Source of the DNA: Spirochaetes bacterium ADurb.BinA120
GTDB taxonomy: Bacteria; Spirochaetota; UBA4802; UBA5368
Assembly (NCBI GenBank): GCA_002069125.1
Contig: MVZN01000033.1
Span: 1 to 32,314 of the forward strand
DNA: 32,314 nt
Direction of reading: 5' to 3'
A program made the position numbers and the translations under genes. Below the pieces are notes generated by a model. That model saw only the letters and a program-made list of their open reading frames with translations. It was not told where the DNA came from and did no database searches. This document shows, one piece after another, positions 2,191 through 30,108 of this stretch (its first letter is position 1; the number at the start of each line of letters is the position of its first letter).

Positions 2191-2214
2191 GTGATGCAAG
2201 CCCAACGCCCCCGG

Positions 2215-2235: not shown

Positions 2236-2299
2236 GGGATTTACCTAGTACCGCTTGCCGGATACGGCCCATGCACTGACTGACGCCATCGAACAGCCG

Positions 2300-2461
2300 T
2301 TAAGCAGCATGCACGGACGCGCCCGAGGCGAAGTCGCCCGCTATGCCGTCCTGGCGCGGGCGACACTTCCGACATCCTGGCGGTAGGATATTCCACGATG
2401 GACCTTCCGCAGCCGAACAGAGAGTCCATGGAATAACCAGCAGTAAAACACAAAGAACCAT
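2300..2461 (-). pseudogene. Possible remnant of a secreted-protein gene
   Basis: From ATG 2461 the minus strand encodes a typical signal peptide (MVLCVLLLVIPWTLCSAAEG) followed by only about 33 residues to a stop. There is no good ribosome-binding site, and the residues after the signal peptide look unlike a folded domain. It could be the start of a broken exported-protein gene, a very small secreted peptide, or chance. Confidence 0.25.
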
Positions 2462-2650
2462 TTTTACGGATAATCCCGGATTGCCTTTGATACATTCATG
2501 CTGAAAGTCCAGGCCCCGCGCCGCTTGAGCGGCAAGACCATCGGTGCCGCACAGAACGTGCCAATGTCGGCGAAGCGACAGGAGGTCGCTTCTTTCGTCG
2601 ACCGTTTGAGCGCAGCCCCTCCGGCGACTGATCGAGCGCGTTTTTCTTTG

Positions 2651-2677
2651 CTTCTTTTTCCGCGATGAAAAAGAAAG
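2651..2677. repeat. Hairpin CTTTTTC-cgcgat-GAAAAAG
   Basis: Seven perfect pairs (2654-2660 with 2667-2673), extended outward with a bulge, and embedded in GCGCG...GCGCG flanks. There is no T-tract directly after the stem, so it is not a standard terminator. It may be a repeat element. Confidence 0.4.
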
Positions 2678-2834
2678 CGCGGTTCCCCCATTTACTGAAG
2701 GGTGCGCACCTGGCCCTGGAGGGTTTGGTGGAGAGGCTAACATGAAAATAATTTCTGTTTAGCTCCTTTAGTATCTGGTTGTAGAACTGGTTGAGCCCGA
2801 AAAATGACTTTTTATACCTCCCCCTGATAATCCC

Positions 2835-12680: not shown

Positions 12681-12940
12681 GTATCAGGCGACATTTGGAA
12701 TGTATAGCATTTTAAATAGACATCTTTCTTGAATACGTTATATTTCATGGCCGGTCGGGCCACCGCTTCCGCCGGATATCGACACCCGGCCGTAACGACG
12801 GCAGGTCACTGTGTACAATCTCCGTGGCAAGGGGAGCCGTTGATCCGGCGTAATCCGCGCAAGCGCCCGCATGAACGGAAAAACAACGGTCGTTGCGGCG
12901 GGGCGACAACTCAAACGACATCCCGGAGTTTCTACCTTTA

Positions 12941-13777
12941 ATGCAGAATGTCAAATATCACGCCATCAACACCGCGTCCGTCATCGCCTTCGCCCTTGTC
13001 CTCGCCGCAGGGATCAACCAGCTTATACGGTTGAGCATTACTCCGCTGCCCGGACATCAAGAGCGCAAAACCCGTGCCGTCGGAGCGCAGGCCCCGGCCA
13101 GGACCTTCGACGATTACAGGCGGATACTCGACTCGGGCTTTTTCCGCCTTGCGGGGCAGGAGGCCCTTAACGGCGGCTCGACGTTATCGAGCAAACTTAC
13201 CGAACTCCAGTTGATGGGAACGATCTCCGGACCGGCTTCGATTGCCCGTGCTCTCATTAAAAAGAGCACCGAAAAGGACCCGGAGGTCTTCCGGATAGGC
13301 TCCCCGGTATACGGTTACACCCTTGTTAGGATCGACAACACGAAGGTTTATCTTCGGGGGACCGACAAGAAGCTGGAGATGCTGGATATGTTCGCCGGCC
13401 CACCCTCCGCGGATGCCGGCAAAGCGCCCCCCCCGGGAGGCGCGGAAGGCCGGATCAAGCAGACAATCAGCAGGGCCGAACTGCAGCAGAAGGTGCTCAA
13501 CAACATGGATAACGCCCTGGCCGGGCTTCGCGCGGGGCCCTATCGTGTGGATGGGAAGATTCAGGGCTACAAGCTCTTCCGGGTCCAGCCGGACAGCGTA
13601 CTCTATCAGCTTGGAGCCCGAAACGGGGACGTTGTGCGCAGGGTAAACGGACATCCCATAGACAGCACCGAAAAGCTGTATCAGATGTGGAAATCGATCC
13701 AGGGTGATTCCAGAATCACGATCGATCTGGAGCGCGGAGGGAAGCTCGTAAATTATGACTTCACCGTTTCCGAATAG
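12941..13777 (+). CDS. gspC: Type II secretion system protein GspC
   Basis: A bitopic inner-membrane protein of 278 residues that links the inner platform to the secretin. A short cytoplasmic start leads into one membrane helix (about 8-27). The periplasmic part contains the HR domain (LTELQLMGTISGPASIARAL then FRIGSPVYGYTLVRI), which in known systems contacts GspD N0, and a C-terminal PDZ domain (about 180-278, YKLFRVQPDSVLYQLGARNGDVVRRVNG). ATG 12941 is chosen because it gives the usual short N-terminus; an in-frame TTG at 12893 lacks support. It is the first gene of a twelve-gene gsp operon, with a 24-base gap to gspD. Confidence 0.9.
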   Translation: MQNVKYHAINTASVIAFALVLAAGINQLIRLSITPLPGHQERKTRAVGAQAPARTFDDYRRILDSGFFRLAGQEALNGGSTLSSKLTELQLMGTISGPASIARALIKKSTEKDPEVFRIGSPVYGYTLVRIDNTKVYLRGTDKKLEMLDMFAGPPSADAGKAPPPGGAEGRIKQTISRAELQQKVLNNMDNALAGLRAGPYRVDGKIQGYKLFRVQPDSVLYQLGARNGDVVRRVNGHPIDSTEKLYQMWKSIQGDSRITIDLERGGKLVNYDFTVSE

Positions 13778-13801
13778 GGAAATAACAAAGGGGATAAGCA
13801 C

Positions 13802-15739
13802 ATGACCTTTTCAAGATTGCCCAGGACCGTTAGCATCATTACGCTGATCCTCACGTGCGGAGCCCTGGGGGGCCCACGCCTTTTTTCGCAGTCCGTCGAG
13901 GATGGCGCGGCCGAGGCTGTCCGCAAACCCGTCGTCGAGACCCCGCTGAAAGCCGGCACCGAAAACCCGGTCACCCCGGAGGAAAAGGCATCCGAAACGC
14001 CGGCCAACCCCCCACTGGACAGGCAGGACGGGCCCCGGAAAGCCCCCAAAATCGACAGGACCGAAAAATATTTTACGCTCAACTTCAAGGACGTCGAGCT
14101 TGCCGAATTCCTCAATATAATGAGCCAGCTCATTAAAAAGAACATCATGGTCGACGAAAAGGTGCGCGGCAAGATCACTATAAGCTCGGCAAAGCGCATA
14201 CCCGTCGCTCAGGCCTTCGACATACTCAAGTCCATCCTCGAGATCAAGGGATTCGCCGTAATCGAGACCGAGAACTTAATCAAGGTCGTCCCTATAAAGG
14301 ACGCCATCAAGAAAAATGTCGAAATAATCGTGGACAAAGACGGCGCCGCGGCGATTCCGGCCGAGGACCGTACCATCACTTATCTCCTTCAGGTGGATTA
14401 CGCCGACGCCAACGAGATCGCCAACGTGCTGCGCCAGCTCAAATCCAACGATACCGACCTCGTGGTATATCCTCCGCTGAACACAATTATACTCAGCGGA
14501 AACGCCAAGGAGATCGGCGGCCTCACCCGGATCAGCCGCTCCCTGGACAGGAAGATAGAGGAGATCAAGGATGACAGGGCGCGCAAAGGGAACATTCACG
14601 TCATTCATCTCGAAAACGCGGACGCCGAGAAGCTCGCCGCCGTTCTGTCGCGCATTCCATTTTCCGAAACGGCCAAAATCGACACGTCCCCGATAACGCC
14701 CGCCGCCGGAACGACACCGCCACAGCAGGCCCCGGCCGTGCGGCGCTCGGACCGCACCGCCCGAGTCACCCAGACACAGCAGACGGCGCCGCCGTCCGCA
14801 TCGACCCAGAAATTGTCCATCATAGCCAACAAGGAGACCAATTCGCTCATCATCTCGGCTACGCCCCAGGAGTTCGCCGAGATAGAGCGTATCGTAAACG
14901 AGCTGGACACCGTCCGCGAACAGGTTTACATCGAAACCCTGATCGTCGAGGTGAACGCCCAGGATGGATGGTCGCTCGGAATCGACTGGATGATGGGGGA
15001 CCAGAGCGGAAAGCATATATACGGCGGTTCCTCGATAATGGGCGCCCCGCCAAGCTATACGCCTCCGAGCGGCCTTGGCGGCAAGACCCTCGCGGTGCCT
15101 GCCGCCACCGGCTTCCAGCTCGGCTATCTCGCCGACAGGAGCATACTCGGCTATATCCTTCTCAACGCCACCGGGATCGACAATAAGTACAACATCCTCT
15201 CCACGCCCCAGATCCTTACCCTGGACAACCAGGAGGCGGAAATCAACGTGGGGGAGGAAATCCCGGTCCCGACGAACAACCGGATAAGCGACACCGGCGT
15301 GCAGTTCTACACCTACGAGTATAAAACCGTGGGCGTGAAGCTTAAGATCACACCTCATATAACGCAGAAGAACCGCATCACCCTCGATCTCTACCAGGAG
15401 GTCAATTCCGTCACAGGCACCACGACGGTCTCCCCCACCGGCACCGTCATCCCGCCCGAGCTCGGAAAGCGCGACATTAAGACCAAGATAACCGTCCACG
15501 ACGGAAAAACGATCGTTGTGGGCGGGCTAATCCGCAATAATTCGAACGTCGAGGAGACCAAGGTGCCCATACTCGGCGACATCCCGCTTTTGGGCTGGTT
15601 CTTCAAACGCAAGACCGTTCAGAACACGAAGACCAACCTTCTGGTTTTCATAACCCCGCACGTGGTGACCAGGCCCGACCGCGCCGAGGCCCTGACCGAC
15701 CAGAAGCGCGAGGCCCAGCGCCGGGTAAGAGGAAGATAG
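13802..15739 (+). CDS. gspD: Type II secretion secretin GspD
   Basis: The outer-membrane channel subunit, 645 residues. A signal peptide (about 1-30, ending LFSQS) is followed by a Pro-rich linker and the N0 domain (FTLNFKDVELAEFLNIMSQL). Then come N1 (YLLQVDYADANEIANVLRQL), N2/N3 segments with a Pro/Gln/Thr-rich insertion near 290-340, and the secretin domain. Secretin signatures include YIETLIVEVNAQDGWSLGID, the NVGEEIPVP gate region, VGVKLKITPHI and VPILGDIPLLGWFFK. The length is ordinary. AAAGGGG precedes the ATG. No pilotin gene is recognisable next to it, so targeting to the outer membrane is unexplained. Confidence 0.95.
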   Translation: MTFSRLPRTVSIITLILTCGALGGPRLFSQSVEDGAAEAVRKPVVETPLKAGTENPVTPEEKASETPANPPLDRQDGPRKAPKIDRTEKYFTLNFKDVELAEFLNIMSQLIKKNIMVDEKVRGKITISSAKRIPVAQAFDILKSILEIKGFAVIETENLIKVVPIKDAIKKNVEIIVDKDGAAAIPAEDRTITYLLQVDYADANEIANVLRQLKSNDTDLVVYPPLNTIILSGNAKEIGGLTRISRSLDRKIEEIKDDRARKGNIHVIHLENADAEKLAAVLSRIPFSETAKIDTSPITPAAGTTPPQQAPAVRRSDRTARVTQTQQTAPPSASTQKLSIIANKETNSLIISATPQEFAEIERIVNELDTVREQVYIETLIVEVNAQDGWSLGIDWMMGDQSGKHIYGGSSIMGAPPSYTPPSGLGGKTLAVPAATGFQLGYLADRSILGYILLNATGIDNKYNILSTPQILTLDNQEAEINVGEEIPVPTNNRISDTGVQFYTYEYKTVGVKLKITPHITQKNRITLDLYQEVNSVTGTTTVSPTGTVIPPELGKRDIKTKITVHDGKTIVVGGLIRNNSNVEETKVPILGDIPLLGWFFKRKTVQNTKTNLLVFITPHVVTRPDRAEALTDQKREAQRRVRGR

Positions 15740-15741
15740 GC

Positions 15742-17448
15742 ATGGCCCTGCGAGGCAGGAAAACAAAACCGCTCGGAGCCCTGCTCGTCGACCGAAAGGT
15801 CCTCACGGCGGAACAGCTCCAGGAGGCGCTCATCCTACAAAAAACGACGCCGCTTCGCCTGGGGCAGCTTCTAATAAAAAAGGGCCTTGCGACCGAGGAT
15901 GAGGTCCTCGAGGCGCTTGCGGAACAATCCGGCGTTCCCTATCAGAAGAGCATCGCCTTCGACGACCCCGACGATATCTTTTCCCGGGTTCCCACCTATT
16001 TTTTAAAAAAGAACAAGGTGGCGCCCTTCAGGGCGGGCGGCTCGGTTATCTATGTGGCAGCCGCCGATGTGCTCAACATCCACCCCTTCGACGATCTAAA
16101 AATGCTTTACCCCGACCACGACATCGAGGCCGTACTCGCGCCCGAGGCGGAGATATCCAGGATCATCAACAGTCATTACGACATCATGCGCGCAGACTCC
16201 GCCGGGGAAGTGATCGAGGGACTCGCCGGCTCCGATTTCGAGATTTTAAGCTCGCCCGTCCTCGAGACCGAGGACATACTCGACATGGCGAACGAGGCGC
16301 CCATTATCCGCCTCGTCAACACCATGATAACCCAGGCCGTTCAGGACAGGGCGAGCGACATCCATCTGGAGCCCTACGAAAAGGACATGGCGGTCCGCTT
16401 CCGCATTGACGGCATACTGTACCAGATGTTCACCCCGCCCAAGAAGTTCCAGGGCGCCATAATATCGCGCATAAAGATAATGGCGAACCTAAACATCGCC
16501 GAGAACCGCCTTCCTCAGGACGGACGCATCCAGATCAAGATTGGCGGCAAGGACATCGACATACGCGTATCGGTCTTCCCCACCTATTACGGCGAGCGTG
16601 TCGTCATGAGGCTCCTCAACAAGACCGACATGAACTTCGACCTTTCGGCCATGGGCTTCTCCGCGGCCGTACTTAAATCCTTCGAGGCGACCATCCGAAA
16701 GACCTACGGGGTGGTCCTGGTCACCGGCCCGACCGGAAGCGGGAAGAGCACCACCCTATATGGAGTGTTGTCGGGCCTTCGCTCTCCCGAGATCAACATC
16801 CTTACGGTCGAGGACCCCATCGAGTACCAACTGCACGGCGTTGGCCAGATGCAGGTCAAGCCGAAGATCGATCTGACGTTCGCGAACGGCCTGCGCTCCA
16901 TACTCCGTCAGGACCCGGACGTCATAATGATCGGCGAGATACGCGATCTCGAGACCGCCGAGATCGCCGTGCAGGCAGCGCTGACCGGCCACAGGGTGTT
17001 CTCCACCCTGCATACCAACGACGCGGCCAGCGGCGTCACGCGCCTCATCGATATGGGGGTCGAGCCCTTCCTTATCACCTCGTCGGTAAACGCGTTCCTG
17101 GCCCAGCGGCTGGTTCGGACGATCTGCCCGAGCTGCCGGCAGCCCTATCGCCCAACGGCGCAAATGCTCTCGGAGCTCGGCCTTGGCGGGGCAAAGGCCA
17201 AAGGGGCCAGGTTCTTTCACGGCAAAGGCTGCGAAAAGTGCCTGGGTACGGGCTTTATGGGCCGTACCGGTATTTTCGAATTCCTTCCCCTTTCCAACGA
17301 CATCCGCCGGATGATCATAAATCGCGCGGAGGCCTACGAGATCAAGGAACAGGCGATTCGGGAGGGAATGGTGACCCTGCTCGCCGACGGACTCCAGAAG
17401 GCGATGGCCGGCGCCACGACGGTCGAGGAAGTCCTAAGGGTAAGCTGA
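15742..17448 (+). CDS. gspE: Type II secretion ATPase GspE
   Basis: The cytoplasmic hexameric ATPase that drives pseudopilus assembly, 568 residues. The N-terminal MshEN/N1E domain (LGALLVDRKVLTAEQL then LGQLLIKKGLATEDEV) binds GspL in known systems and in some relatives binds c-di-GMP. The ATPase core has Walker A GPTGSGKST (about 329-337), an Asp box, Walker B VIMIGEIRD (about 394-402) and a His box around STLHTNDA. A zinc-binding four-cysteine module is present (CPSC near 465-468, CEKC near 497-500). It follows gspD by two bases with GAGGAAG ahead of the ATG. Confidence 0.96.
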   Translation: MALRGRKTKPLGALLVDRKVLTAEQLQEALILQKTTPLRLGQLLIKKGLATEDEVLEALAEQSGVPYQKSIAFDDPDDIFSRVPTYFLKKNKVAPFRAGGSVIYVAAADVLNIHPFDDLKMLYPDHDIEAVLAPEAEISRIINSHYDIMRADSAGEVIEGLAGSDFEILSSPVLETEDILDMANEAPIIRLVNTMITQAVQDRASDIHLEPYEKDMAVRFRIDGILYQMFTPPKKFQGAIISRIKIMANLNIAENRLPQDGRIQIKIGGKDIDIRVSVFPTYYGERVVMRLLNKTDMNFDLSAMGFSAAVLKSFEATIRKTYGVVLVTGPTGSGKSTTLYGVLSGLRSPEINILTVEDPIEYQLHGVGQMQVKPKIDLTFANGLRSILRQDPDVIMIGEIRDLETAEIAVQAALTGHRVFSTLHTNDAASGVTRLIDMGVEPFLITSSVNAFLAQRLVRTICPSCRQPYRPTAQMLSELGLGGAKAKGARFFHGKGCEKCLGTGFMGRTGIFEFLPLSNDIRRMIINRAEAYEIKEQAIREGMVTLLADGLQKAMAGATTVEEVLRVS

Positions 17449-17449
17449 C

Positions 17450-18700
17450 ATGATCTTCGAGTACCAGGCGCTTAACAGAAAGGGCGACACTGTCGCGGAC
17501 GTGGTGGACGCCCCCAGCGAACAGGCCGCCCGCCAGAAGATCCGCGGTATGGGGCTCTATCTCGTAAAGCTCGAGGAGCACGGAGGGAAGCCCTCGGCGG
17601 CCTCGTCCGCGTCGAGGAGCGGAATCCGAAGGGCATACGAGGGACTGAGGTATTATCTGGACCTCAAGTTCAGCTCCAGACAGGTGGGCATATTCTCGCG
17701 CCAGCTATCCGTGCTTCTGGGCGCGGGGATGCCGCTTCTGGTGGCGATCAACGACATCATCGACCAGGTCGACAACAGAAACTTCAAGAGCATCGTAGTC
17801 GATATAAAGGAGAAGCTCGAGGAGGGATCGTCCTTTTCGGCCTGCCTGGAGCGGCATCCGATCGTTTTCACCGAGATGTACATCAACATGGTGCGAGTCG
17901 GAGAGAGCCTCGGTTCGCTCGACCAGGTGATAGAGCGGCTCGCCGAGCTCGAGGAGAAGAAGAACATACTCAAGGGCAAGATCCAGGCGGCGCTGTGGTA
18001 TCCCGCATTTCTGATATTTTTCGCCATTCTGGTCGTCCTCTTCATCATGATAAACATCATTCCCTCCCTCACGCGGATGTTCCTGGAGCTCGGCAAGGAC
18101 CTCCCCCTGCCCACCAGGGTGGTGATGGGATTCAGCGATTTCCTGGCGAGCTTCTGGCCCCTCCTTCTGGCTGTACTGGCGGCAGGCGCGCTCTTCGTCA
18201 GAAAGTACGTTAAAACACCCGAGGGAAGGCGCAAGGCCGACGAACTCAAACTCTCCATACCGCTTGTCGGAAACCTCTACCGTAAGCTCGTGGTGCTGCG
18301 CTTCACCCAGAACCTCGGGGTGCTTCTTTCCAACCGTGTGGACATAATGAAATCATTCGAAATAGTGAAAAAGATAGTGGTAAACTCCGTCATCGAGGAA
18401 AAGATAGACGAGGCGGCCGACCGGATCCGAGAGGGCTCGTCCGTATCCACGGCGCTTGCCAGGGCCGATTTTCTCCCGAGACTCGTCATCGGGATGATCG
18501 CCGCGGGCGAGGCGAGCGACAGGCTGGACGCCATGCTCCAGAATATTGGACGCGTGTACGAAACCGAGCTCGACCTCACGGTGACCAGCCTCACCAGCAT
18601 GATCGAGCCGATAATCATCATAATCATGGGCGTTGTCATAGGGCTTATCGTCATCGCGGTGCTTCTGCCCATTTTCGAGATGAACCTAATATTACAGTGA
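17450..18700 (+). CDS. gspF: Type II secretion inner-membrane platform protein GspF
   Basis: A polytopic inner-membrane protein of 416 residues with the duplicated GspF/PilC cytoplasmic helical domain. Three membrane segments are visible near 183-205, 235-250 and 384-411. [19 protein letters not shown] in the first repeat and [19 protein letters not shown] in the second are the family motifs. It transmits the motion of GspE to the pseudopilus. The start codon lies one base after the gspE stop, so translation is probably coupled. Confidence 0.95.
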
Positions 18701-18707
18701 GGGAGAC

Positions 18708-19187
18708 ATGAAACGGATTCTAAGAGCAATCGCACAGCGCGCGGCAGCCGCCACTACCGGATTGAGGGGAAACGCGGGCTTCACGCTAATCGAGCTCATG
18801 ATCGTAATCGCCATCATAGGCATTCTATCGATCATCGTGGTGCCGCGCTTCATGGATATTCCGCAGAAGGCCCGCGTTGAGGCGACCAAACAGCAGATCG
18901 CGGCCTTCGGCCTTGCGCTCGATCGTTACAACCTCGACAACGGCATATACCCGACCACCGAACAGGGACTGGCCGCGCTTATAGAACGGCCCTCCTCCGA
19001 GCCCGCCCCGATGAACTACAACGAGGGGGGATATCTCAAGAAGAAGGAGCTTCCCAAGGACCCGTGGGGACGCGATTACATATACCGCTCGCCGGGCGAT
19101 CACGGCAACGATTACGAGATCATGAGCCTCGGCGCCGACGGCAGGGACGGCGGCGAGGGCGTGAACGCGGACATAAAAAGCTGGTAA
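18708..19187 (+). CDS. gspG: Major pseudopilin GspG
   Basis: A 159-residue prepilin with a long basic leader and cleavage expected after Gly24 (G|FTLIE, with the conserved Glu at +5). The hydrophobic helix [17 protein letters not shown] follows. The body has the GspG layout, including [15 protein letters not shown] and [13 protein letters not shown], and the calcium-site region near the C-terminus ([19 protein letters not shown]). It polymerises into the pseudopilus that pushes cargo through the secretin. GAGGGAG precedes the ATG. No prepilin peptidase gene is in the window, so processing must be encoded elsewhere. Confidence 0.95.
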
Positions 19188-19204
19188 GCCCCGCACTCCC
19201 TGCA

Positions 19205-19777
19205 GTGTATACGGCCGGAAGGGCTCATAACCTTAAGGGGCGGGGCGGCTTTACCCTCCTCGAGCTCATCGTGGTGATCGCCATAATCTCGATCATGGCG
19301 ATGCTCATCGTGCCGCGCATTCCGCGCTTTGCGGGCACGGACCGGGGCAGCTTCATCATCCTGACAGGCATAGTCGCCCGCTGCTTCGACGACGCCTATC
19401 TCAAGGGGAACACCAACTACCTCATCGTCCACCTTTACGATCGAGGAACCGAATCCGGGGAATACGATGAAAAGATTTTCAGCCGCGGAAACGGCCTCTC
19501 GGTGGTGACCATGGACCGGCAGGGCAGGTTTTCCGATTCGCGCGATAGGCTGCTCGCCTACCATCGCTTTCCGGACTCGTTTAAAATTGAAGAGGTCATC
19601 GTCCCCGGAGCGGACCCCATAAGGGAGGGAAACGTGTTCATTCCTTTTCACCCCTCGGGTTCCTCCGCGAACGCGATCCTTCATATTCTTACCGGCGGAA
19701 GGGATCGATGGTCCGTGCGCATCAGCCGCTTAAAAAAAGAGGCCAGGATAACGCATGAATACGACGTATTCGAATGA
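19205..19777 (+). CDS. gspH: Minor pseudopilin GspH
   Basis: A prepilin of 191 residues from GTG 19205. The frame is open further upstream into gspG, but those codons are an out-of-frame reading of gspG. The leader ends GRGG|FTLLE (cleavage after Gly15, Glu at +5), followed by the helix LIVVIAIISIMAMLIVP. The rest has a GspH-like beta-rich pattern but weak identity to well-known members, so assignment rests on order between gspG and gspI. The start has no clear ribosome-binding site. The 3' end overlaps gspI by 23 bases. Confidence 0.82.
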   Translation: MYTAGRAHNLKGRGGFTLLELIVVIAIISIMAMLIVPRIPRFAGTDRGSFIILTGIVARCFDDAYLKGNTNYLIVHLYDRGTESGEYDEKIFSRGNGLSVVTMDRQGRFSDSRDRLLAYHRFPDSFKIEEVIVPGADPIREGNVFIPFHPSGSSANAILHILTGGRDRWSVRISRLKKEARITHEYDVFE

Positions 19778-20150
19778 GGGCCGCGGCGGGTTTGCGCTCG
19801 TCGAGATTCTCATCGCAATCGCCATACTCTCCATCGCCATGCTCGCAATCATATCCGGCGTGTCCTCCGGCATAGCCGCCATATCCGGAAACAGGAACAT
19901 GACCCGGGCCATGCTGATAGCGAAGAGCAGGCTGAGCCTTTATTACGTGTACCGCATGCGCGAGCCGGACGCGCAGGAGGAGGCTGTAAAGGAGTATCCC
20001 GGATTCAGCTACAGCAGGAAAACTACGAAGTTCGAGCACGAGCTCTTCGGGCCGGTAAACGCACGGCGGGTCGAGATAACCGTGCACTGGACGGAGAGGG
20101 GGCGCAAACGCAACTACACCCTAAGCTACGTGTATCCGGAGAGGATGTGA
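19755..20150 (+). CDS. gspI: Minor pseudopilin GspI
   Basis: A 131-residue prepilin with a short leader (NEGRGG|FALVE, cleavage after Gly12, Glu at +5) and a hydrophobic helix ILIAIAILSIAMLAIISG. The small C-terminal domain includes VNARRVEITVHWTERGRKRNYTLS, matching the GspI end where strands close the domain. In known systems GspI nucleates the tip complex with J and K. It overlaps gspH upstream and gspJ downstream. Confidence 0.87.
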   Translation: MNTTYSNEGRGGFALVEILIAIAILSIAMLAIISGVSSGIAAISGNRNMTRAMLIAKSRLSLYYVYRMREPDAQEEAVKEYPGFSYSRKTTKFEHELFGPVNARRVEITVHWTERGRKRNYTLSYVYPERM

Positions 20151-20851
20151 AGCGCGGAACCGCCCGTATAATGGCCCAAAACCTTCGCTCCGTCATTGCG
20201 CGCTTGGCGCGGGACCGGGCGGGCTTCTCCCTGCTCGAGGTGATCGTCGCCACTGCGGTCTCCTCGGTCATACTCCTCATGGTGTATTCGGCCCACCGTT
20301 CCATCATGACCTCCGTGTTCGACCTCACCGGAATCGCCGAGTTCCACGAGAACATTACCCTCGCCATCCGGCGCATGGACAGGGACATATCCTACGCGTA
20401 CGCCCAGAAATTCAACGAGCACGTCTGTTTCATCGGCGAGAATCGTTCGGGCCAGACCTCCGACGGGCGCATCGATTTTATCACCACCGACTTCCAGAGC
20501 GAATCCATCTCCCTTACCCCGAAGAGGCAAAACCCGTCCAGCGACATCTACGAGGTTGGATACCACCTGCGCCCCGACCGCGAGGTCCCCGGGCTCCATC
20601 AACTAATGCGGCGAAGCGACCTTCATTACGACGACAACCCTCTCGAAGGGGGCGATGAAGACGTACTGCTCGACAACGTCGTGGATTGCAGATTCGAGTT
20701 CTGGCTGAGGAACGACTGGGTGGACAAATGGGACTCGCGCGAGGCAAAAATACACCCGCAGGCGGTGAGGACCACGCTTCGCGTAAAGAATTACCGCGGA
20801 GTCGTTGAAGATTTCGTGTTCATATCCTACGTAAACCCGGTGAACGAATGA
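20147..20851 (+). CDS. gspJ: Minor pseudopilin GspJ
   Basis: A 234-residue prepilin starting at GTG 20147 inside the gspI stop (GTGA overlap), with GGAGAGG just ahead. The leader of 26 residues ends DRAG|FSLLE with Glu at +5. The helix is VIVATAVSSVILLMVYSA. The large beta-rich globular domain, including NITLAIRRMDRDISYAYA, is typical of GspJ. An in-frame ATG at 20171 is an alternative start. The gene overlaps gspK by four bases. Confidence 0.88.
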   Translation: MKRGTARIMAQNLRSVIARLARDRAGFSLLEVIVATAVSSVILLMVYSAHRSIMTSVFDLTGIAEFHENITLAIRRMDRDISYAYAQKFNEHVCFIGENRSGQTSDGRIDFITTDFQSESISLTPKRQNPSSDIYEVGYHLRPDREVPGLHQLMRRSDLHYDDNPLEGGDEDVLLDNVVDCRFEFWLRNDWVDKWDSREAKIHPQAVRTTLRVKNYRGVVEDFVFISYVNPVNE

Positions 20852-22074
20852 GCCCCCGTAAGCTTTTCCATGCCCTTTCGAAGGCCGCCGTTCGCGACTA
20901 CCGCAGGCGCGAAAAGGAGCTCCTCGAAAAGGGGCTTTTGGGCGCCTTTGCGGGTTCGTCGGGTTATATCCTGGTCATAGTGCTCCTCGTAATTTCGCTC
21001 CTGGTGGCCATTTCGAGCGAATTCATAATCACGGCCCAGACAAACGTGCGGTATATCGGCAAATTCAGCGAGTCCCTGCGCGCCCGCACCATCGCGCGAG
21101 CGGGCGTAAACCTTGCGGTCGCGCTCCTCGAGGCCGACAAAAAGGGGGCCGCCTCCGGCCTTCTTTCCGGGGTTTCGACAAACACGAACGTTGACTCGTA
21201 TCAGGACATCTGGGCCATAGACCTGCCGCCACTGCCGATCGAGGGCGGACATCTGAAGATATCCATAGCCGACGAGAATTCCAAAATCAACATCAACGCG
21301 CTCGCGAATGAGGTGGTGGACAAATCCCCCTATTACACGGTGGCGCAACGTTTCTTTCTCAATATGGGGCTTTCCATGGACCTCGCCGATACGCTTATCG
21401 ACTGGGTGGATATCGACGACAGCCGCTTTCCCTATGGGGCCGAATCCTCCGACTATTATCTGGCGCAGAGGCGGCCTTACAGGGCCAAGAACGCCGCCAT
21501 GGACAGCATCCAAGAGATGCTTATGATAAAGGGCTTTACGCCGGAGATTTACTACGGCCTGGGCGGAGGCAACCACGGCAGGGAAAGCGGAATTGTGGAG
21601 GACAATCGCGGGGCGCGAGTGGTAAACCCCGACGCCGTGTCCGGGCCTGGCTCCGGACGGGCGCTGGACTCGCGTCGAACCGACCCCGCCGAGAGCTCGG
21701 CTCCAATCGGACGCGAGCGCAGCCGCAGGCTCGGCGAGTATTTCCGCGTAACGGGCGAACGGAGCGACTATCTAAGCGAGATGAACAAGATCAACATAAA
21801 CACCGCATCCTACCGTGTCTTATCGGCGTTGACAGACGAAATGACTGATGATAGGGTTACCGAGCTCATTCGCCGGCGCCGTTCCAGGCCTTTCGAATCC
21901 ATCGACGAGGTCGCGGACATCGTAACCGACGAAACCGTCAGGCGGAACCTGCTCACCGTGCGATCTTTCATTTTCCGTCTCGCGGTAACGGGCCGCGTCA
22001 ATAAAACCGAAGTGACGATGATCGCCCTGTACAACAGGCAGAACAGGGTATTCTATTACATGAGCGAGCAATGA
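20848..22074 (+). CDS. gspK: Minor pseudopilin GspK (tip protein)
   Basis: A 408-residue tip pseudopilin, overlapping gspJ by ATGA. The basic leader is long (about 39 residues), ending SSG|YILVI. The hydrophobic helix is YILVIVLLVISLLVAISSEF and lacks the Glu at +5, which is usual for GspK. The large domain carries the family features SKININALANEV, DTLIDWVDIDDSRFPYGAE and the later KININTASYRVLSALTDEM, which lies in a helix-hairpin-helix-like segment. A 78-base gap without an evident promoter follows before gspL. Confidence 0.93.
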   Translation: MSPRKLFHALSKAAVRDYRRREKELLEKGLLGAFAGSSGYILVIVLLVISLLVAISSEFIITAQTNVRYIGKFSESLRARTIARAGVNLAVALLEADKKGAASGLLSGVSTNTNVDSYQDIWAIDLPPLPIEGGHLKISIADENSKININALANEVVDKSPYYTVAQRFFLNMGLSMDLADTLIDWVDIDDSRFPYGAESSDYYLAQRRPYRAKNAAMDSIQEMLMIKGFTPEIYYGLGGGNHGRESGIVEDNRGARVVNPDAVSGPGSGRALDSRRTDPAESSAPIGRERSRRLGEYFRVTGERSDYLSEMNKININTASYRVLSALTDEMTDDRVTELIRRRRSRPFESIDEVADIVTDETVRRNLLTVRSFIFRLAVTGRVNKTEVTMIALYNRQNRVFYYMSEQ

Positions 22075-22152
22075 ACATTTATTCCTTGACATCCGCCGCG
22101 AACCGTTCATCCAACAATAATTCCCCTAACTCCGGGAAGCGGAGGTCTTGAC

Positions 22153-23784
22153 GTGTTCGAAAACATCACCGCGCTTGACATCGGTTCGTCTTCGGTCCGC
22201 ATGCTTACCGCCAGGACTGGACTGCGGAACTTTCAGGTGACCGGGCTATCCATAGAGGACGTAATCCCCGAGGAAGGCGATTCCCCGACAGAGGCCGTGC
22301 GTCGCGCCATCGAGCGTCTCCTGGCCGACAGCGATCCTGGAAACCGTACGATACTGTGCAATCTCCCCATGGAGAGGGCCATAGTGCGCAATATCGCCTT
22401 CCCGTTCAGCGATGTGGAAAAGATATCCGCGGCCATCCCCTACGAGGCGGAGGAGAATTTACCATTCAGCATCGACGAACTAATAATGGACTTCCAGGCG
22501 CTCAAAAGTCCCCGCACCGAGGAGGCCCGCATTATGCTTGCGGCCACGCCCATAGAGGCCGTCCGCGAGCACGTGACCATACTTGCGGACTCGGGCCTGC
22601 GCCCCATAAGGATGGGGCTGGAGGCGAACGCGCTCTTCGAATGCTACCGGTATTTCAACCGCATACCCGGGGAGAACATCATTCAGGTGGACATAGGACA
22701 CGAAAAGACCGTGCTAAACGTGGTCGGCGAAGGGGAGCTTCTCTATACGCGCTGTATTTCGCTAGGCCTTGGGACCGTGCACCGGGAAATCGCGTCCATA
22801 AACCATACCGGCATGCGCGAGGCGAGGCTCCTGTTCGAATCGCTTAACCTGGACCTTACATCCATCGAAAACAATTACCAGCGCGATTTCCATAAAACAT
22901 TGGGCTTGACCAGACCGCGCCTTAAAAAAATATATGATCGCACCGTGTCGCTCGTTGAGGAGCTGGTGGAACAGATCCTTCTCACGCTGCGGGCATTTAC
23001 GGTGGAATACGGCGCGTTGGAATTCGGCCGCATCCTCATCTCGGGAGGCGGCGCCAACCTCGCCGGGATCGGCCACCTGCTGTCGCGAGAGCTGGAGCTT
23101 CCGGTCGCCTCCCTTCCCTTTCTACAGGGTTATCCGGAGCAGGCCATACAGACGCAGTTTCCAATCGTTTTCGGTACAATGCTCTCGTATCTCAACTCGC
23201 GGCGGCAGGCCGTAAATTTCCTAAAGGGCGAATTCGTTCCCGATCTCGCCGGAGGCTCGCGCAGGATATACTATCTCGCCGCCCTTTTTCTCGGGCTCGC
23301 CGGTATTCTGCTCCTTGCCAATCTTGCGGTGTCCTCTTTTCTTGGCTACAGGACCGGGGCCCAGTACCAAAGGGAGATCAACGAGCGATACATGCGGTAT
23401 TTCCACGCGCGGCAACCCGCCGAAGACCCTATCAAGGCGGCGGCCGCCATGCTTAACGAAGAGAAAAAACAACTGGATACGATTGACGCGCTCGTCCAGC
23501 CCGGGGACAGGGTAATCGACCTCATGACCGATATTACGGAAAAATTTCCGGGCGATCCGGATTTCCAGCTCTCCAATATGGTCGTGAACGAGGGTATAGT
23601 CCGAATCGACGGCCAGGTCTCCTCGAGCAGGATCATCGATGATTTTAAAAACAGGCTGCTCGAAACAGGCAAGTTCGGTTCGGTCGATCTAAACACCAAC
23701 ATCAGCAGAAAAAACGAGATCGGTTTCTCGCTCGTAATAAAGCAGTCCGGAAAAAAAACGCCGCCGAAGGAGCGGATGGAGTAA
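22153..23784 (+). CDS. gspL: Type II secretion protein GspL (PilM/PilN-like)
   Basis: A 543-residue inner-membrane protein. The cytoplasmic actin-like domain begins with ALDIGSSSVRML (phosphate-1-type motif) and is PilM-like, longer than in the shorter proteobacterial GspL proteins. A membrane helix (about 372-394, YYLAALFLGLAGILLLANLA) leads to a periplasmic PilN-like ferredoxin fold (VRIDGQVSSSRIIDDFKNRL). It recruits GspE and binds GspM. GTG 22153 is chosen with GGAGG upstream. The single chain corresponds to the separate PilM and PilN of type IV pilus systems. Confidence 0.9.
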   Translation: MFENITALDIGSSSVRMLTARTGLRNFQVTGLSIEDVIPEEGDSPTEAVRRAIERLLADSDPGNRTILCNLPMERAIVRNIAFPFSDVEKISAAIPYEAEENLPFSIDELIMDFQALKSPRTEEARIMLAATPIEAVREHVTILADSGLRPIRMGLEANALFECYRYFNRIPGENIIQVDIGHEKTVLNVVGEGELLYTRCISLGLGTVHREIASINHTGMREARLLFESLNLDLTSIENNYQRDFHKTLGLTRPRLKKIYDRTVSLVEELVEQILLTLRAFTVEYGALEFGRILISGGGANLAGIGHLLSRELELPVASLPFLQGYPEQAIQTQFPIVFGTMLSYLNSRRQAVNFLKGEFVPDLAGGSRRIYYLAALFLGLAGILLLANLAVSSFLGYRTGAQYQREINERYMRYFHARQPAEDPIKAAAAMLNEEKKQLDTIDALVQPGDRVIDLMTDITEKFPGDPDFQLSNMVVNEGIVRIDGQVSSSRIIDDFKNRLLETGKFGSVDLNTNISRKNEIGFSLVIKQSGKKTPPKERME

Positions 23785-23787
23785 AGA

Positions 23788-24306
23788 ATGATAAGCCTTT
23801 CCACCCGCGAAAAAAGACTGCTCAAGGCGCTCGGCGTCGTGGCCGGCGGGGCCATGGTCTGGGGACTGGTTATAAACCCCTACCTGTCCCTAAGCGAAAC
23901 CTCCCGGTCGAGCATCGCCGGCAGCCGCCAGGACCTCGCCCGGCTCGATTCGCTTTACGAGGAGTATCGGGACGTGCGGCAGCGCAAGGCGCGCTATGAC
24001 GCGCTGCTCTCCAACAGGGAGGAAAACATCACCACCCTTATCGAGCAGTGGTCGGCAAGCGCAGACGTGGCCCGCCATATCGCCTATACGCGCAGGACAC
24101 AGTCGAACGTCCAGAACAAGTATTTGCGCATCAGCACCGATATAAAAATCGACGGCGTGCCCATGCAGAAATTCCTTCGCTTTCTCTACGAAATAGAAAG
24201 CTCCGGCCGTCTTCTAAAGGTGAGCTACCTTCGGCTCTACCAGGGACTCAAGGGCGCCGACACCTATGACGTCATCATGAAAATCGACAGCTACTCCCTT
24301 CAGTGA
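23788..24306 (+). CDS. gspM: Type II secretion protein GspM (PilO-like)
   Basis: A 172-residue bitopic protein. A short N-terminus and one membrane helix (about 12-30, LGVVAGGAMVWGLVINPYL) are followed by a coiled-coil-prone stretch and a small periplasmic ferredoxin-like domain (PMQKFLRFLYEIESSGRLLKV). This is the layout of GspM/PilO. It stabilises GspL in the inner-membrane platform. GGAG sits ahead of the ATG, overlapping the end of gspL. Identity is low, as is usual for GspM; position supports the call. Confidence 0.85.
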   Translation: MISLSTREKRLLKALGVVAGGAMVWGLVINPYLSLSETSRSSIAGSRQDLARLDSLYEEYRDVRQRKARYDALLSNREENITTLIEQWSASADVARHIAYTRRTQSNVQNKYLRISTDIKIDGVPMQKFLRFLYEIESSGRLLKVSYLRLYQGLKGADTYDVIMKIDSYSLQ

Positions 24307-24321: not shown

Positions 24322-25182
24322 ATGGAAATCCGACAGATACGCGAGAGGATATCCGCGGCCTTTAAATCGGCCGGGCGCTTTCTTCGCGAGACGATCGCCC
24401 TGCCGTACGCCAAGCTTTACATCGCCGCGGCGTTCGCGCTGACAGCCTTCTTTGTCGTTTTGGGATTCCCCTTCGATGTTTTCATTCGCGCGGAGCTGCA
24501 AAAGATGGAGCAGAGGGGCCTTAGAAGCGTTGAGGTCGGGGAAATCGAATTCAATCTGATCGGCAACTCTTATATAGACAGCCTGATTCTGGGTGCCGGA
24601 TCCGAATCCGAGATCGCAATCAGGGATCTCAGATTCAATATCGCGGTCAATCCGGTGACGACCCTGCTTTATAAAACCCTGAAGGGAAGCATCGGCGCCG
24701 GGGAATTTCGGTTTTCCGACGGGGATTCCTCGTTCTCATGCATCCCCACAGGTGAATTCCGCCTGGCCTCGGACCCCGGCTCGGGCGTTCCCCGCAACGG
24801 CTTTTTGAACCTGGAGCTTCAAAATGTCGCCCTGAAGGGTATCACCATAAAAGGCTTCGCCATACCGGCCGTGCGTTTCGGCTCGATCGTAATGAATTCC
24901 GAGCTGCACGAGGGAGAGCTACGCATCATCAAATTCGACGGCGCCGGTCCCGATCTCCGCGGCTCCATCCGCGGCTCCATTACCCTGGCCCCATACGTCA
25001 GGAACTCCACCCTAAACCTCGTAATCGATATCGATGCGCAATCCAAGCTGGTGCAGGATTACAGGATACTGCTCGGCAACCTTGCGAACCAGGGGGATGG
25101 GCGGCTTCGGCTCAACCTTACGGGCACCCTCTCCGCTCCTTCGGTCGCGTTTCCCGGGGCTGAAAAGGGCCACGAGCGATGA
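24322..25182 (+). CDS. gspN: Type II secretion protein GspN
   Basis: A 286-residue protein with one N-terminal membrane helix (about 33-50, LYIAAAFALTAFFVVLGFPF) and a large periplasmic part rich in beta strands, like the AsmA-related GspN family. Segments such as ELQKMEQRGLRSVEVGEIEF and the repeated GSIRGSITL fit that fold. GspN is absent from many T2SS; its exact role is unknown. GAGGAAA lies nine bases ahead of ATG. The stop codon overlaps the next start by four bases (ATGA), so the IspH-UbiA protein is probably coupled to it. Confidence 0.78.
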   Translation: MEIRQIRERISAAFKSAGRFLRETIALPYAKLYIAAAFALTAFFVVLGFPFDVFIRAELQKMEQRGLRSVEVGEIEFNLIGNSYIDSLILGAGSESEIAIRDLRFNIAVNPVTTLLYKTLKGSIGAGEFRFSDGDSSFSCIPTGEFRLASDPGSGVPRNGFLNLELQNVALKGITIKGFAIPAVRFGSIVMNSELHEGELRIIKFDGAGPDLRGSIRGSITLAPYVRNSTLNLVIDIDAQSKLVQDYRILLGNLANQGDGRLRLNLTGTLSAPSVAFPGAEKGHER

Positions 25183-26897
25183 AGATCGAGCTGGCCCGGC
25201 ATTCCGGATTTTGCATGGGGGTCCGGGACGCCATACTGACCATCGTAGAGGAGCTAAACACCGCCGACGAGGAGATACTGGTGTACGGCCCCCTCATCCA
25301 CAATCCGCAGACCGTCTCCATTCTTGGTAGGCGAGGCCTGAAAACCATCAACGACCTCCAAGACATCGACGGAAAAACCATAGCCGTGCGCACTCACGGA
25401 ATTCCAATAGAAAAACTGCGCGACGTAAAGGCTCGCTCCAAACGCTACCTCAACCTGACCTGCCCCCGCGTCTCCCGCGTCCAGGGCCTCATAAAAAACT
25501 ATTCCGGCAGGGGATATTATACGATCATCATCGGCGACAGGGACCATGCCGAGGTGCTTGGATTGAAGAGCTATGCCGCGGCCGGAGTGACCGTAGTCTC
25601 CGACACGCGCGATCTCGACGCAATTCCCTCCGCCGAAAAATACATCGTCGTCTCCCAGACCACCCAGGACCTCGATCAATTTTCAACTATCGTCGCCGAA
25701 CTGGAGAGGCGGTTTTCCGGCGTTACGGTGATCAACACCATATGCGATTCAACTCACAACAGGCAGAGCGATATTCGCGACGGCATAGCGCGCAACATAG
25801 ACGCGCTCGTGGTGGTCGGAGGAAGGGAATCGGCCAACACCGCCAGGCTCGCCCAGATGGGGCGCGAGTGCGGAATAAAGACCTTTCACATCGAGACGGA
25901 GGCGGAGCTTGAAAGCGAAGACTTCCGGGGCATACGGCATGTCCTTGTAACCGCGGGCGCCTCCACGCCGGGCTGGATAATCAACAACGTAATGGAGCGG
26001 CTCTACGAGATACGGTACGCCAACAGCCGTTTTTTCCCGGGGCCGCTAGTCAAACTCTTCGACTTCGTGCTGAGGACAAATATTCTTTCCGCCGCGGCCG
26101 CCGGCCTCCTGAGTCTTTTCGCCCTAAGGTTCGCGGGCTTTTCCGCAGACCCGGCGCCTGCGCTGGCCTCGTTCCTGTATATCTTCGCCATGTACACACT
26201 CAACAATCATTTCGAGATGGAGTCGCTCCTCATTCGGAACCCGGTCAAATACGCCATTCAGAACCGCTTCAAGCACATCCTGCTGCCGGCCGCCGTGCTG
26301 TCGCTGGGGGCCTGCCTGTACCTTGCTGTCCGATACGAACCTCCTATAGCTTTCGGCTACCTTTTGTCCTGCGTGCTGGGAGCGGCATACTCCACGCGCC
26401 CGATGAAGCGGATTGTGGCCGGAACCGGCTCGAGGCTTCTGCAGAAGGCGTATAATCTAAAAAATATCGTCTCCGGATTCGGCTGGCTGATCGTAACCAC
26501 TGTGCTCCCGCTTGCCGCGGTAAAGGCCGGGCCGGTCGTTTTCCTTGCGGCCTGCTCGTACGTTTTTGCTCTGGTGTTCTTCCGAAACATCCTGCTCGAT
26601 ATAATTGCTTTCCAGGGAGATCTGATATTCGGCATGCAGACTTTTTCCACGATGCTCGGGGTGCGCGCTGCCGGTAGGATAGCCATTGCCGTCTCGGCGC
26701 TGGCGGGAATCGCCTTCTCGCTGACGGCCCTGTGGGTCGGGAAGGCGGCCTTTGTCGCCTTTCTGGCGAACCTAATTTATTTCGGGGCGGTATATTACCG
26801 TATACGGTCGAAAAACTATTTTATCGCCCTGAAATACGAAATGCTGCTCGATCTTAATTTCGTGCTCTTCGCGGCGATTTATTTCACAACGTCCTGA
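25179..26897 (+). CDS. ispH: Fusion of IspH (HMBPP reductase) and a UbiA-type prenyltransferase
   Basis: A single uninterrupted 572-residue frame. Residues 1 to about 280 are IspH, the Fe-S enzyme of the last MEP-pathway step that makes IPP and DMAPP. The cluster ligands are Cys12, Cys95 and Cys189, and the active-site residues are His41, His73, His123, Glu125 and the STP motif near 262. Residues about 290-572 form a membrane UbiA-like domain with about eight helices. Its first Asp-rich motif is degenerate (NNHFEME in place of NDxxDxxxD), while the second is kept (DIIAFQGDLIFGMQT). The fused domain could use the prenyl diphosphates made downstream of IspH. The acceptor is unknown. The start overlaps gspN, and the stop codon abuts the stop of the convergent lipoprotein gene. 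No internal stop or frameshift is visible. Confidence 0.88.
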   Translation: MKIELARHSGFCMGVRDAILTIVEELNTADEEILVYGPLIHNPQTVSILGRRGLKTINDLQDIDGKTIAVRTHGIPIEKLRDVKARSKRYLNLTCPRVSRVQGLIKNYSGRGYYTIIIGDRDHAEVLGLKSYAAAGVTVVSDTRDLDAIPSAEKYIVVSQTTQDLDQFSTIVAELERRFSGVTVINTICDSTHNRQSDIRDGIARNIDALVVVGGRESANTARLAQMGRECGIKTFHIETEAELESEDFRGIRHVLVTAGASTPGWIINNVMERLYEIRYANSRFFPGPLVKLFDFVLRTNILSAAAAGLLSLFALRFAGFSADPAPALASFLYIFAMYTLNNHFEMESLLIRNPVKYAIQNRFKHILLPAAVLSLGACLYLAVRYEPPIAFGYLLSCVLGAAYSTRPMKRIVAGTGSRLLQKAYNLKNIVSGFGWLIVTTVLPLAAVKAGPVVFLAACSYVFALVFFRNILLDIIAFQGDLIFGMQTFSTMLGVRAAGRIAIAVSALAGIAFSLTALWVGKAAFVAFLANLIYFGAVYYRIRSKNYFIALKYEMLLDLNFVLFAAIYFTTS

Positions 26898-27561: not shown

Positions 27562-28296
27562 TTATCGGGGACGGGCGGTTGCGATGATATCGGCGATTTC
27601 CCGCACGGCCCTTGCCAGCCCCAGAAAGACGGCGCGAGAGATTATCGAATGGCCGATATTGAGCTCCTCCAGCCCCGGCGTTTCCAGTATCGGCGGCAGG
27701 TTCCGGTAGCTCAGGCCGTGACCGGCATTGATCCGAATGCCGATGGCTTTGGCATGATGCGCCGCCCGATATATTCGATCAAGCTCTTTTTGGACTTCGG
27801 CCTCTCCGCGCGCTCCACAATAGGTCCCCGTGTGGAGCTCGATAAAATCGGCGCCGGTTTCACGGCTCAACTCCACAATCCGCGGGTCCGGTTCGACGAA
27901 CAGGGAGACAAGCACCCCGATGTCGTGAAACATACGCGCCACCTCGATGATGCGGGCTTTGTTAGCGGCCACGTCGAGCCCGCCCTCGGTGGTAAGCTCC
28001 TGGCGCTTCTCCGGGACCAGGGTTATCTGGTTTGGGACGACACGGCGCGCAACGGAAATGATATCGTCGGACAGCGCCATCTCGAGGTTTAATTTACCGC
28101 GCACTACGTCCCGCAGTCCGGCCACGTCCATATCCTGAATGTGGCGACGGTCCTCCCGCAGATGAACCGTTATTCCAGCGGCGCCATTATCCTCACAGAC
28201 AAGGGCCGCCTCTATGGGGTCGGGTTCGATTCCTCCACGCGCCTGCCTGAGCGTGGCGACGTGGTCGATATTGACGCACAATACTGTTTTCTGCAT
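27562..28296 (-). CDS. pdxJ: Pyridoxine 5'-phosphate synthase PdxJ
   Basis: A cytoplasmic TIM-barrel enzyme of 244 residues that condenses 3-amino-2-oxopropyl phosphate with 1-deoxy-D-xylulose 5-phosphate to make pyridoxine 5'-phosphate (DXP-dependent vitamin B6 route). The start CVNIDHVATLRQARGG is the family signature. AGITVHLREDRRHIQD, QITLVPEKRQELTTEGGLD and INAGHGLSYRN follow in order. The length is normal. GAGGAAG precedes ATG. DXP is also the entry compound of the MEP pathway, so B6 synthesis and the nearby IspH share a precursor. No pdxA is in the window. Confidence 0.96.
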   Translation of the reverse strand: MQKTVLCVNIDHVATLRQARGGIEPDPIEAALVCEDNGAAGITVHLREDRRHIQDMDVAGLRDVVRGKLNLEMALSDDIISVARRVVPNQITLVPEKRQELTTEGGLDVAANKARIIEVARMFHDIGVLVSLFVEPDPRIVELSRETGADFIELHTGTYCGARGEAEVQKELDRIYRAAHHAKAIGIRINAGHGLSYRNLPPILETPGLEELNIGHSIISRAVFLGLARAVREIADIIATARPR

Positions 28297-28303
28297 GGCT
28301 TCC

Positions 28304-29302
28304 TCAGCGCGGCTCGGGGCCGGGCGTCTTTTTCTTAATTTTTATCGTTATGGAATCCGGCAGAACGTGCATGACACGAAAGTCATCCTGTCGGTTCTTT
28401 AATATGACGCTTACCGGACATAGGCGCTCGATGGCCGGATCGGCCCCGGCGTCGTGAAAATCCGCCATCGCCAGCGTCCCCGGATCGACCGACACGTCCA
28501 TCACAAGCCCTTCGGTCGTTTCGCCGTCGTGGAGCGGCTTCAGATAAACCACGACGGTCTCGGCGGCGGGCCGGTATTCATAGCGCTCGTCGGGGTTTCG
28601 AACACGCGCCCTTCCTTCCGCGCGCAACAGCCCGCGCACATCCAGCAGGCGGATGAACACCGTGGATTTTTGCACATCGACGCTAAGATCGGAATTGTTT
28701 TCGACATCCAGACGCACCTCTTTTGTGATATCCCTGGACTGGCCGTCAACATTTATCTCCTTCGTATACAGCGCCTCAATCTCGCGCACCCTGGACTCGG
28801 CGCCCGATACTAACGCGTACGCCGGCAGGACCCTGCTTCCTCCAAGGATGAAACCTTCTTTTGGATCACCCGCGGTCCTCACCACGATCGGGACCCTCTT
28901 CATCAGTTTGCGCTGGACTGAAAGAAGCATCTTCTCTCGCGAGAGATCCACCCGGACCCCCTCCGGTATCCCGGCTTTTACCAGCTCGACCGGATAGCGT
29001 ATCTCGTCGCTCGGGACCGCGTTTTCCAGGTCCACATAGGCCCTTATGTTCTTCGCGTTGACGAGCTTGATGTCCTCCTGCCTGCCGCTCAGTCGCACCG
29101 TAACGAACTGGTCGTGGCTGTTCTCGACGATTAGGGACGCGGGCAGATTGCGCATCTCGACCGGAGCGCGCAGCTTTATTTCGCCTGTCCTGGTGCTCCC
29201 CACGTATGCCCACAGCACGACGGCCGCCATAAGGCACAGGAGCTTCTGCTTGAAGTCCCTGCCGCTGGCTATGTTTTTCAGCTCGTCGACGAAGGTGATC
29301 AT
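28304..29302 (-). CDS. cdaR: CdaR/YbbR-domain protein
   Basis: A 332-residue protein with a single membrane helix near the N-terminus (about 21-36, KLLCLMAAVVLWAYVGS). Repeated YbbR domains lie outside the cytoplasm, each with strands such as LRAPVEMRNLPASLIVEN and TVRLSGRQEDIKLVNAKNIR. CdaR proteins regulate the diadenylate cyclase CdaA, whose gene overlaps this one by four bases upstream. The C-terminus is Lys-rich. In Bacillus and Listeria the pair is followed by glmM; here pdxJ follows after seven bases. Confidence 0.88.
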   Translation of the reverse strand: MITFVDELKNIASGRDFKQKLLCLMAAVVLWAYVGSTRTGEIKLRAPVEMRNLPASLIVENSHDQFVTVRLSGRQEDIKLVNAKNIRAYVDLENAVPSDEIRYPVELVKAGIPEGVRVDLSREKMLLSVQRKLMKRVPIVVRTAGDPKEGFILGGSRVLPAYALVSGAESRVREIEALYTKEINVDGQSRDITKEVRLDVENNSDLSVDVQKSTVFIRLLDVRGLLRAEGRARVRNPDERYEYRPAAETVVVYLKPLHDGETTEGLVMDVSVDPGTLAMADFHDAGADPAIERLCPVSVILKNRQDDFRVMHVLPDSITIKIKKKTPGPEPR

Positions 29303-30108
29303 TTGATCGAGTACTTCTCCTCGTATGCGGTCTTCGGATTCATGAAATACAGTATCATGTTTTTGAGATCGGACACCTTTATACGGGAGTACATCCTCCC
29401 GTTTACCATTATCGATATGCCGCCGGTCTCCTCGGATGTTACGATAACCAGGGCGTCCGTTTCCTCCGCGATGCCCAGGGCCGCCCTGTGGCGGGCGCCG
29501 TGCTGTTTTTTAAGCTGCCTCGAGTCGCTTAGCGGCAGATAGCAGGCGGCCGCCATGATGCGCGCCTCCTGAATAATGATGGCCCCGTCGTGCAGCGCTG
29601 TATTTGGGAAAAAAATGGTCCGGATGAGCTCATCCGTCAGGGTCGAGTTTATTACGACGCCCGACTCGATATACGCCTTAAGCCCCGTGTTGCGCTCGAT
29701 GACTATGAGCGAGCCGATGCGCTCCTCGGACATGGCCACGACGGCGCTCACCATCTCGTCCAGCGGAAAGGTATCGGAGGCGAACGCGTTGGATATCCAG
29801 TTACGCTGGCCAAACTGGGTGAGGAGCCGGCGAAGCTCCGGCTGGAAAAGGATGATGACCGTAATGACAATGTAGGAGGTCAGGTTGGTGATGAGCCAGT
29901 TCAGCGTGTCCAGCCGGAGTATGTGCGATATCGCCGCCACCGCGAAGATCGCGACCAGGCCCTTGAGGAGCTGCATGGCCCGGGTGTTGGAGATGAAGGT
30001 ATACACCCAGTACAATAGAAAGGCCACCAGAAGCACGTCCAGCACGATCCGGAAGTACTCCCAGAAGGTCGAAGCGAGATACACGGCCCTTTCAAATACC
30101 GCTTCCAT
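29299..30108 (-). CDS. cdaA: Diadenylate cyclase CdaA (c-di-AMP synthase)
   Basis: A 269-residue membrane enzyme making the second messenger c-di-AMP from two ATP. Three hydrophobic helices fill about residues 20-90. The DAC domain follows with the catalytic DGA motif (about 174-176, ALHDGAIII) and RHR motif (about 206-208, GARHRAALG). It overlaps folP by 17 bases upstream and cdaR by four bases downstream. c-di-AMP controls potassium and osmolyte balance in studied bacteria; no target gene is in the window. Confidence 0.95.
   Translation of the reverse strand: MEAVFERAVYLASTFWEYFRIVLDVLLVAFLLYWVYTFISNTRAMQLLKGLVAIFAVAAISHILRLDTLNWLITNLTSYIVITVIILFQPELRRLLTQFGQRNWISNAFASDTFPLDEMVSAVVAMSEERIGSLIVIERNTGLKAYIESGVVINSTLTDELIRTIFFPNTALHDGAIIIQEARIMAAACYLPLSDSRQLKKQHGARHRAALGIAEETDALVIVTSEETGGISIMVNGRMYSRIKVSDLKNMILYFMNPKTAYEEKYSIK

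Follow-up and report, generated by a model that had tools for sequence, protein, structure and literature searches.

The enzyme IspH is essential, serves as a drug target and is usually regarded as soluble. The closest described counterparts of the protein examined here are the 47 fusions of IspH to UbiA reported from sulfate-reducing bacteria as a 'Rosetta stone' case (Rao et al. 2015; PMC4746011). Two DXXXD motifs were reported in these proteins and prenyltransferase activity was favoured; the full-length protein was not obtained, and membrane localisation with a local supply of IPP and DMAPP had already been proposed. Neither spirochaetes nor Brachyspira appear in the main text of that study, and a literature search on 'IspH-UbiA', outside of which most subscription papers fell, returned just one paper besides it. 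An earlier note on the present locus treated the fusion as an undescribed system, a view that the 2015 report on sulfate reducers overturns. The spirochaete version with its altered site has apparently not been described before; what is new is its distribution in spirochaetes and the altered site, within a known fusion type.

The window, by which we mean the whole analysed stretch of 32,314 nucleotides, contains the fusion gene at 25179..26897 on the forward strand, where a single uninterrupted frame with an ATG start and a TGA stop encodes 572 amino acids. A complete IspH (LytB) domain (25185..26003, forward strand) is followed by a UbiA-fold membrane domain spanning residues 286-572 (26034..26894, forward strand). 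In the Pfam search that the earlier note had called for, LYTB matched residues 3-275 strongly (E=3.7e-79) and UbiA matched residues 328-546 weakly (E=1.9e-4), with a score of 23 bits that is below the curated cut-off of 34. NCBIfam gave no partner domain above cut-off beyond IspH. The weak single-sequence UbiA score is the one observation that would suit an artefactual or chance joining of the frames of two genes, and this reading can safely be dismissed since the same single frame recurs in dozens of independent genomes, the trees of the two domains are congruent and the sequences are under purifying selection. A sequencing artefact is excluded by the recurrence of the frame. The clean frame proposed in the earlier note thus stands, its own caveats about joined frames or a stop between the halves are not borne out, and the fusion is real.

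The IspH half is of full length and scored 266 bits against PF02401 and 258 bits against TIGR00216 (cut-off 188). All three Fe-S cysteines (C12, C95 and C189) are present, and these together with H41, H73, H123, E125, T161/T162, S218, N220 and S262 make up IspH ligands that are invariant in an alignment of 32 fusions, which confirms that the ligands are intact. A Foldseek comparison of the model with solved IspH structures yielded E=1.6e-18. From the intact and invariant ligands, the N-terminal domain would be expected to reduce HMBPP to IPP and DMAPP. The genome also encodes ispG. A candidate for a second ispH was rejected: it consists of a LYTB fragment on another contig (G000:C28:33877-34131), which covers profile positions 75–156 only, is located where the contig ends and comes after an antisense frame, and which looks like a chimeric assembly end rather than a gene. 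The fusion gene encodes the main, and probably the only, IspH of the cell.

For the C-terminal half, the Pfam UbiA model matched 25 of the 32 fusion members (E<=0.01; best value 6e-10), and two relatives scored above the curated cut-off. AlphaFold models of the full chain (pLDDT 87.6) and of the C-terminal domain (pLDDT 89.7) show an IspH fold followed by a UbiA fold. Using the C-terminal domain as query, Foldseek retrieved AfUbiA from A. fulgidus, ApUbiA and the archaeal DGGGP synthase (DGGGPS) with a probability of 1.00 and TM values of about 0.6, and the 8-9 transmembrane helices of the UbiA fold are found in the model. A sequence search against solved structures gave nothing significant. 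As judged from the predicted structure, the C-terminal half is a polytopic UbiA-fold domain, and attachment of the fusion to the membrane is highly likely.

In AfUbiA, Mg is bound by N68, D72, D198 and D202, and mutation of the equivalents of these ligands in EcMenA abolishes or nearly abolishes function, those of D72 and D198 being essential (PMC4106721). We placed the AfUbiA numbering on the fused domains by motif alignment, without structural superposition. In the window, the first motif reads NNHFEMESL (N342-L350; 26202..26228, forward strand) in place of NDxxDxxxD, as the earlier note had suspected when it called this motif degenerate. The N68-equivalent N342 is retained in nearly all fusions, the D72 position is occupied by Asp or Glu in about half of them, and the Asp at the D76 position has been replaced by Leu, Met, Ile or Phe in every one. 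The second motif, which had been reported as present, is not fully so. In the segment R469...D474-II-A477-F-Q479-G-D481...G485 (26583..26633, forward strand), with the core DIIAFQGD, the first Asp of DxxxD is Ala (A477) and only the second, D481, is kept. This D202-equivalent is retained in all fusions, while the D198 position holds Ala, Gly, Ser, Thr, Phe or Asn in 44 of about 47, the exceptions being one member of the order (L019, family f5) and the fusions of family f34. The Y139-like Y404 is found in nearly all fusions. In addition, R469 is conserved in all fusions but one and Q479 in most, and both are absent from a standalone spirochaete UbiA (L120) and from the menaquinone UbiA. Hence, the NDxxDxxxD and DxxxD pair of the UbiA family is lacking in the fused domains, and the alignments indicate that both motifs are altered in a patterned way.

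These changes support the doubt raised earlier as to whether the domain is catalytic, and they make it likely that ordinary transfer activity has been lost. A rather unlikely alternative is that the domain is an active non-canonical prenyltransferase, in which Arg and Gln stand in for a Mg-coordinating Asp and which is fed locally by IspH to make a prenylated lipid other than menaquinone. Such an enzyme would be in keeping with the newly conserved R469 and Q479, which stand next to D481 and Y404 as retained residues, and with a polyprenyl synthase gene located directly upstream of the fusion in one of two f34 genomes, and prenyltransferase activity was the function favoured for the two-DXXXD fusions of sulfate reducers. 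Against it are the loss of the D76 and D198 equivalents, given the requirement for the D72 and D198 equivalents in EcMenA, the lack of a conserved acceptor-pathway gene adjoining the fusion, and a rate of evolution that is higher than for the catalytic UbiA of the same genomes.

To the question of whether other spirochaetes carry the fusion or a separate ispH, the answer is that the fusion is recurrent and normally the sole complete IspH of its genome. Among 59 relatives, most IspH frames from within the order have a length of 550–660 residues, and rebuilt profiles recovered the layout of IspH followed by the C-terminal domain across the order outside family f3, except in frames cut by contig ends. 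Relatives of this order that have names, such as UBA5368, are MAGs of uncultured Spirochaetota. When the C-terminal domain was used as a profile, 73 of the 393 genomes in the phylum gave a match, almost always within a long frame, and a few weak matches were to standalone UbiA-like proteins. The fusion-bearing groups are the order itself and f15, f17, f44, f34 and f31, of which f15 includes Brachyspira, as placed by one genome (G114) with 1868 bases 99% identical to plasmid pBHWA1 of B. hyodysenteriae. A profile built from the order only recovered the domains of Brachyspira, f17, f44, f34 and f31 (E 7e-9 to 3e-26) and also matched the standalone UbiA of f28 (E 5e-19; hhalign 98%). In the contig collection, matches to the C-terminal domain came from spirochaete MAGs and one 'uncultured bacterium'.

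Two genomes depart from having the fusion as sole IspH, one with an added standalone IspH (G055) and one with an IspE–IspH fusion (G029). The latter gene (L048, G029:C76, 2118-3845, forward strand) has a frame of 576 amino acids that scored 229 bits for ispE and 254 bits for IspH. An ispG-like gene follows it, the IspH–UbiA fusion is encoded in the same genome as well, and Rao et al. do not list IspE–IspH among their fusions. Three f7 genomes further have, beside a normal fusion, a diverged LYTB-like protein of about 300 amino acids (E 6e-7 to 2e-11), at 2088-2747 in L049 (G037:C4), 2406-3059 in L050 (G031:C41) and about 2376-3317 in L051 (G034:C6).

In phylogenetic trees, the fused C-terminal domains form one group (support 91/74) that is separate from standalone and menaquinone UbiAs, and its division into two main clades mirrors that of the IspH domains. 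These topologies are consistent with one fusion event, early on, from which the fusions descend. An unfused IspH of 280-315 amino acids is found in two f3 genomes (G009 and G018), at the same locus and as sister to the fusions of the order, and loss of the domain is the simplest explanation.

Within the genus, dN/dS values were about 0.09–0.20 for the C-terminal half, as compared to 0.05–0.11 for IspH. Beyond the genus, identity to the window's protein was 24–48% for the C-terminal domain and 54–71% for IspH; in the same genomes, the menaquinone UbiA was mostly 54–67% identical, apart from a single outlying value of 36%. The C-terminal domain, which is under purifying selection yet diverges faster than the menaquinone UbiA, is functional, though under weaker constraint than a UbiA at work. 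The motif erosion, the rapid divergence and the absence of the domain in the two f3 genomes might instead point to a passive membrane anchor that is decaying from a former UbiA and binds no ligand. We consider this improbable, given dN/dS values of about 0.1-0.2 and the polar residues R469, D481 and K428, which are invariant or nearly so across deep lineages.

The fusion is preceded by a type II secretion operon (12893..24306, forward strand; PDZ/gspC-like, gspD, gspE, gspF, ..., gspK, gspL/PilM-like and gspM genes) and by an ORF in the gspN position (24322..25182, forward strand) that follows the gspM-, gspK-, gspF-, gspE- and gspD-like genes. The start of the fusion inside the stop codon of this ORF, as claimed earlier, is confirmed, with the ATG at 25179 overlapping the TGA at 25180-25182 (a 4-base overlap). 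The name gspN, on the other hand, derives from position, and the ORF gave no Pfam match. With a profile of this gene built from order members only, the gene was found to be kept beside ispH throughout the order and in the order only, including f3, where ispH is unfused. In Brachyspira, the fusion is preceded by an rpmB-like gene, as read by eye from the sequence, and in f17 and f44 its neighbours are unrelated. The suggested tie to the secretion operon is accordingly not upheld, and a functional link with secretion was rejected in view of the order-limited linkage and the other neighbours elsewhere. Downstream of the fusion, at 27562-30108 on the reverse strand, pdxJ-like, YbbR-like and diadenylate-cyclase-like (CdaA) ORFs, identified by eye, lie in a row.

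Another UbiA of the window's genome is canonical and belongs to a menaquinone operon of the futalosine type with ubiX/ubiD/ubiE/mqn-like genes (named by eye from the ORFs); it is probably the menaquinone enzyme. In the Brachyspira genomes we found no other UbiA-family protein; the fusion alone scored, weakly, or nothing did. A quinone role, which had been put forward as one option for the fusion, is unlikely because the genome has this menaquinone-operon UbiA and Brachyspira keeps the domain without any other UbiA, and menaquinone as the main role was set aside on these grounds.

IspH requires low-potential electrons, and the membrane domain could in principle place it near a membrane electron source such as Rnf-reduced ferredoxin. 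RnfC-like proteins are encoded in the window's genome, in the tested members of the order and in Brachyspira. There was, however, no RnfC match in the fusion-bearing f17 and f44 genomes, and f3 has RnfC but not the fusion, so that we regard this explanation as very improbable.

Our preferred reading, to which we assign a probability of roughly 0.5, is that of a membrane-bound IspH with a repurposed UbiA-fold module, probably not a transferase, that serves as a tether and may bind isoprenoid diphosphates. The ancestor of the C-terminal domain would be a UbiA prenyltransferase whose motifs were canonical; the domain then lost the equivalents of D76 and D198, and often of D72, kept those of N68, Y139 and D202, and acquired, next to the second motif, an Arg that is almost invariant and a Gln that is conserved widely. 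It would most likely no longer be a canonical Mg-dependent prenyltransferase. Instead, it would tether IspH to the membrane on its inner face and, at that site, probably bind an isoprenoid diphosphate, for hand-over of the product or for feedback; we offer the diphosphate binding as a hypothesis. A fuller version is put forward more tentatively, namely that the UbiA fold was turned once and early in the Spirochaetota into a non-transferase isoprenoid-diphosphate-binding module, with Arg and Gln partly replacing the Mg site and the products of the membrane-bound IspH being handed over or sensed.

Some observations go against the preferred reading. R469, Q479, D481, Y404 and K428 are conserved far beyond the needs of an anchor, as would also suit an altered catalytic site; at the D72 position, about half of the fusions still have an acidic residue, and L019 and f34 keep the D198-equivalent; and the polyprenyl synthase upstream of the fusion in one f34 genome favours a prenyl-diphosphate substrate. 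As it stands, Brachyspira and most of an order of uncultured spirochaetes have a single IspH, for which membrane attachment is predicted, and the swine pathogen Brachyspira hyodysenteriae is among the carriers of a fused sole IspH. Since Brachyspira is culturable and no other UbiA was found in it, the long-open role of IspH–UbiA proteins could be addressed there without background. If the preferred reading is true, the repurposed UbiA fold would serve a purpose other than transfer, which is unusual for a prenyltransferase scaffold.

A search of plasmids for a fusion of the sulfate-reducer type gave IspH only. The viral collection contained one contig with IspH and a membrane domain (L134, IMGVR_UViG_3300032018_000387; 1049-2683, forward strand), in which IspH is fused to another polytopic membrane domain that has no Pfam match and no significant similarity to the spirochaete domain; it shares the stretches NFINRDA and LQTDGFLPRS at the motif positions.

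The IspH-RPS1 fusion (NF000907) likewise joins IspH to a C-terminal partner, but that partner consists of ribosomal S1 repeats, and no S1 domain is present in the window's fusion. The standalone UbiA of f28 (L120:214-1071) is the nearest standalone relative found in the phylum and differs in being unfused and in keeping the canonical D72, D76, D198 and D202. It is the first of two tandem UbiA-like genes (L120, G088:C247, 214-3116), the second of which is broken, and these are followed by a geranylgeranyl-reductase-like gene and then by a gene for a weakly V4R-like protein. With the UbiA family at large (PF01040; AfUbiA, E. coli UbiA and MenA, MqnP), the fused domain shares the fold, the cytosolic motif positions and the equivalents of N68, Y139 and D202, whereas it lacks D76 in all members and D198 in most, has R469 and Q479, and is joined to IspH. 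The fusions of sulfate reducers resemble those of spirochaetes in having IspH followed by a UbiA-like membrane domain, a similar length and a separate UbiA or MenA elsewhere in the genome. By their published description, they differ in having two DXXXD motifs where both motifs are altered in the spirochaete fusions, and they have been described from sulfate reducers only, whereas those described here occur in spirochaetes, including Brachyspira without any other UbiA.
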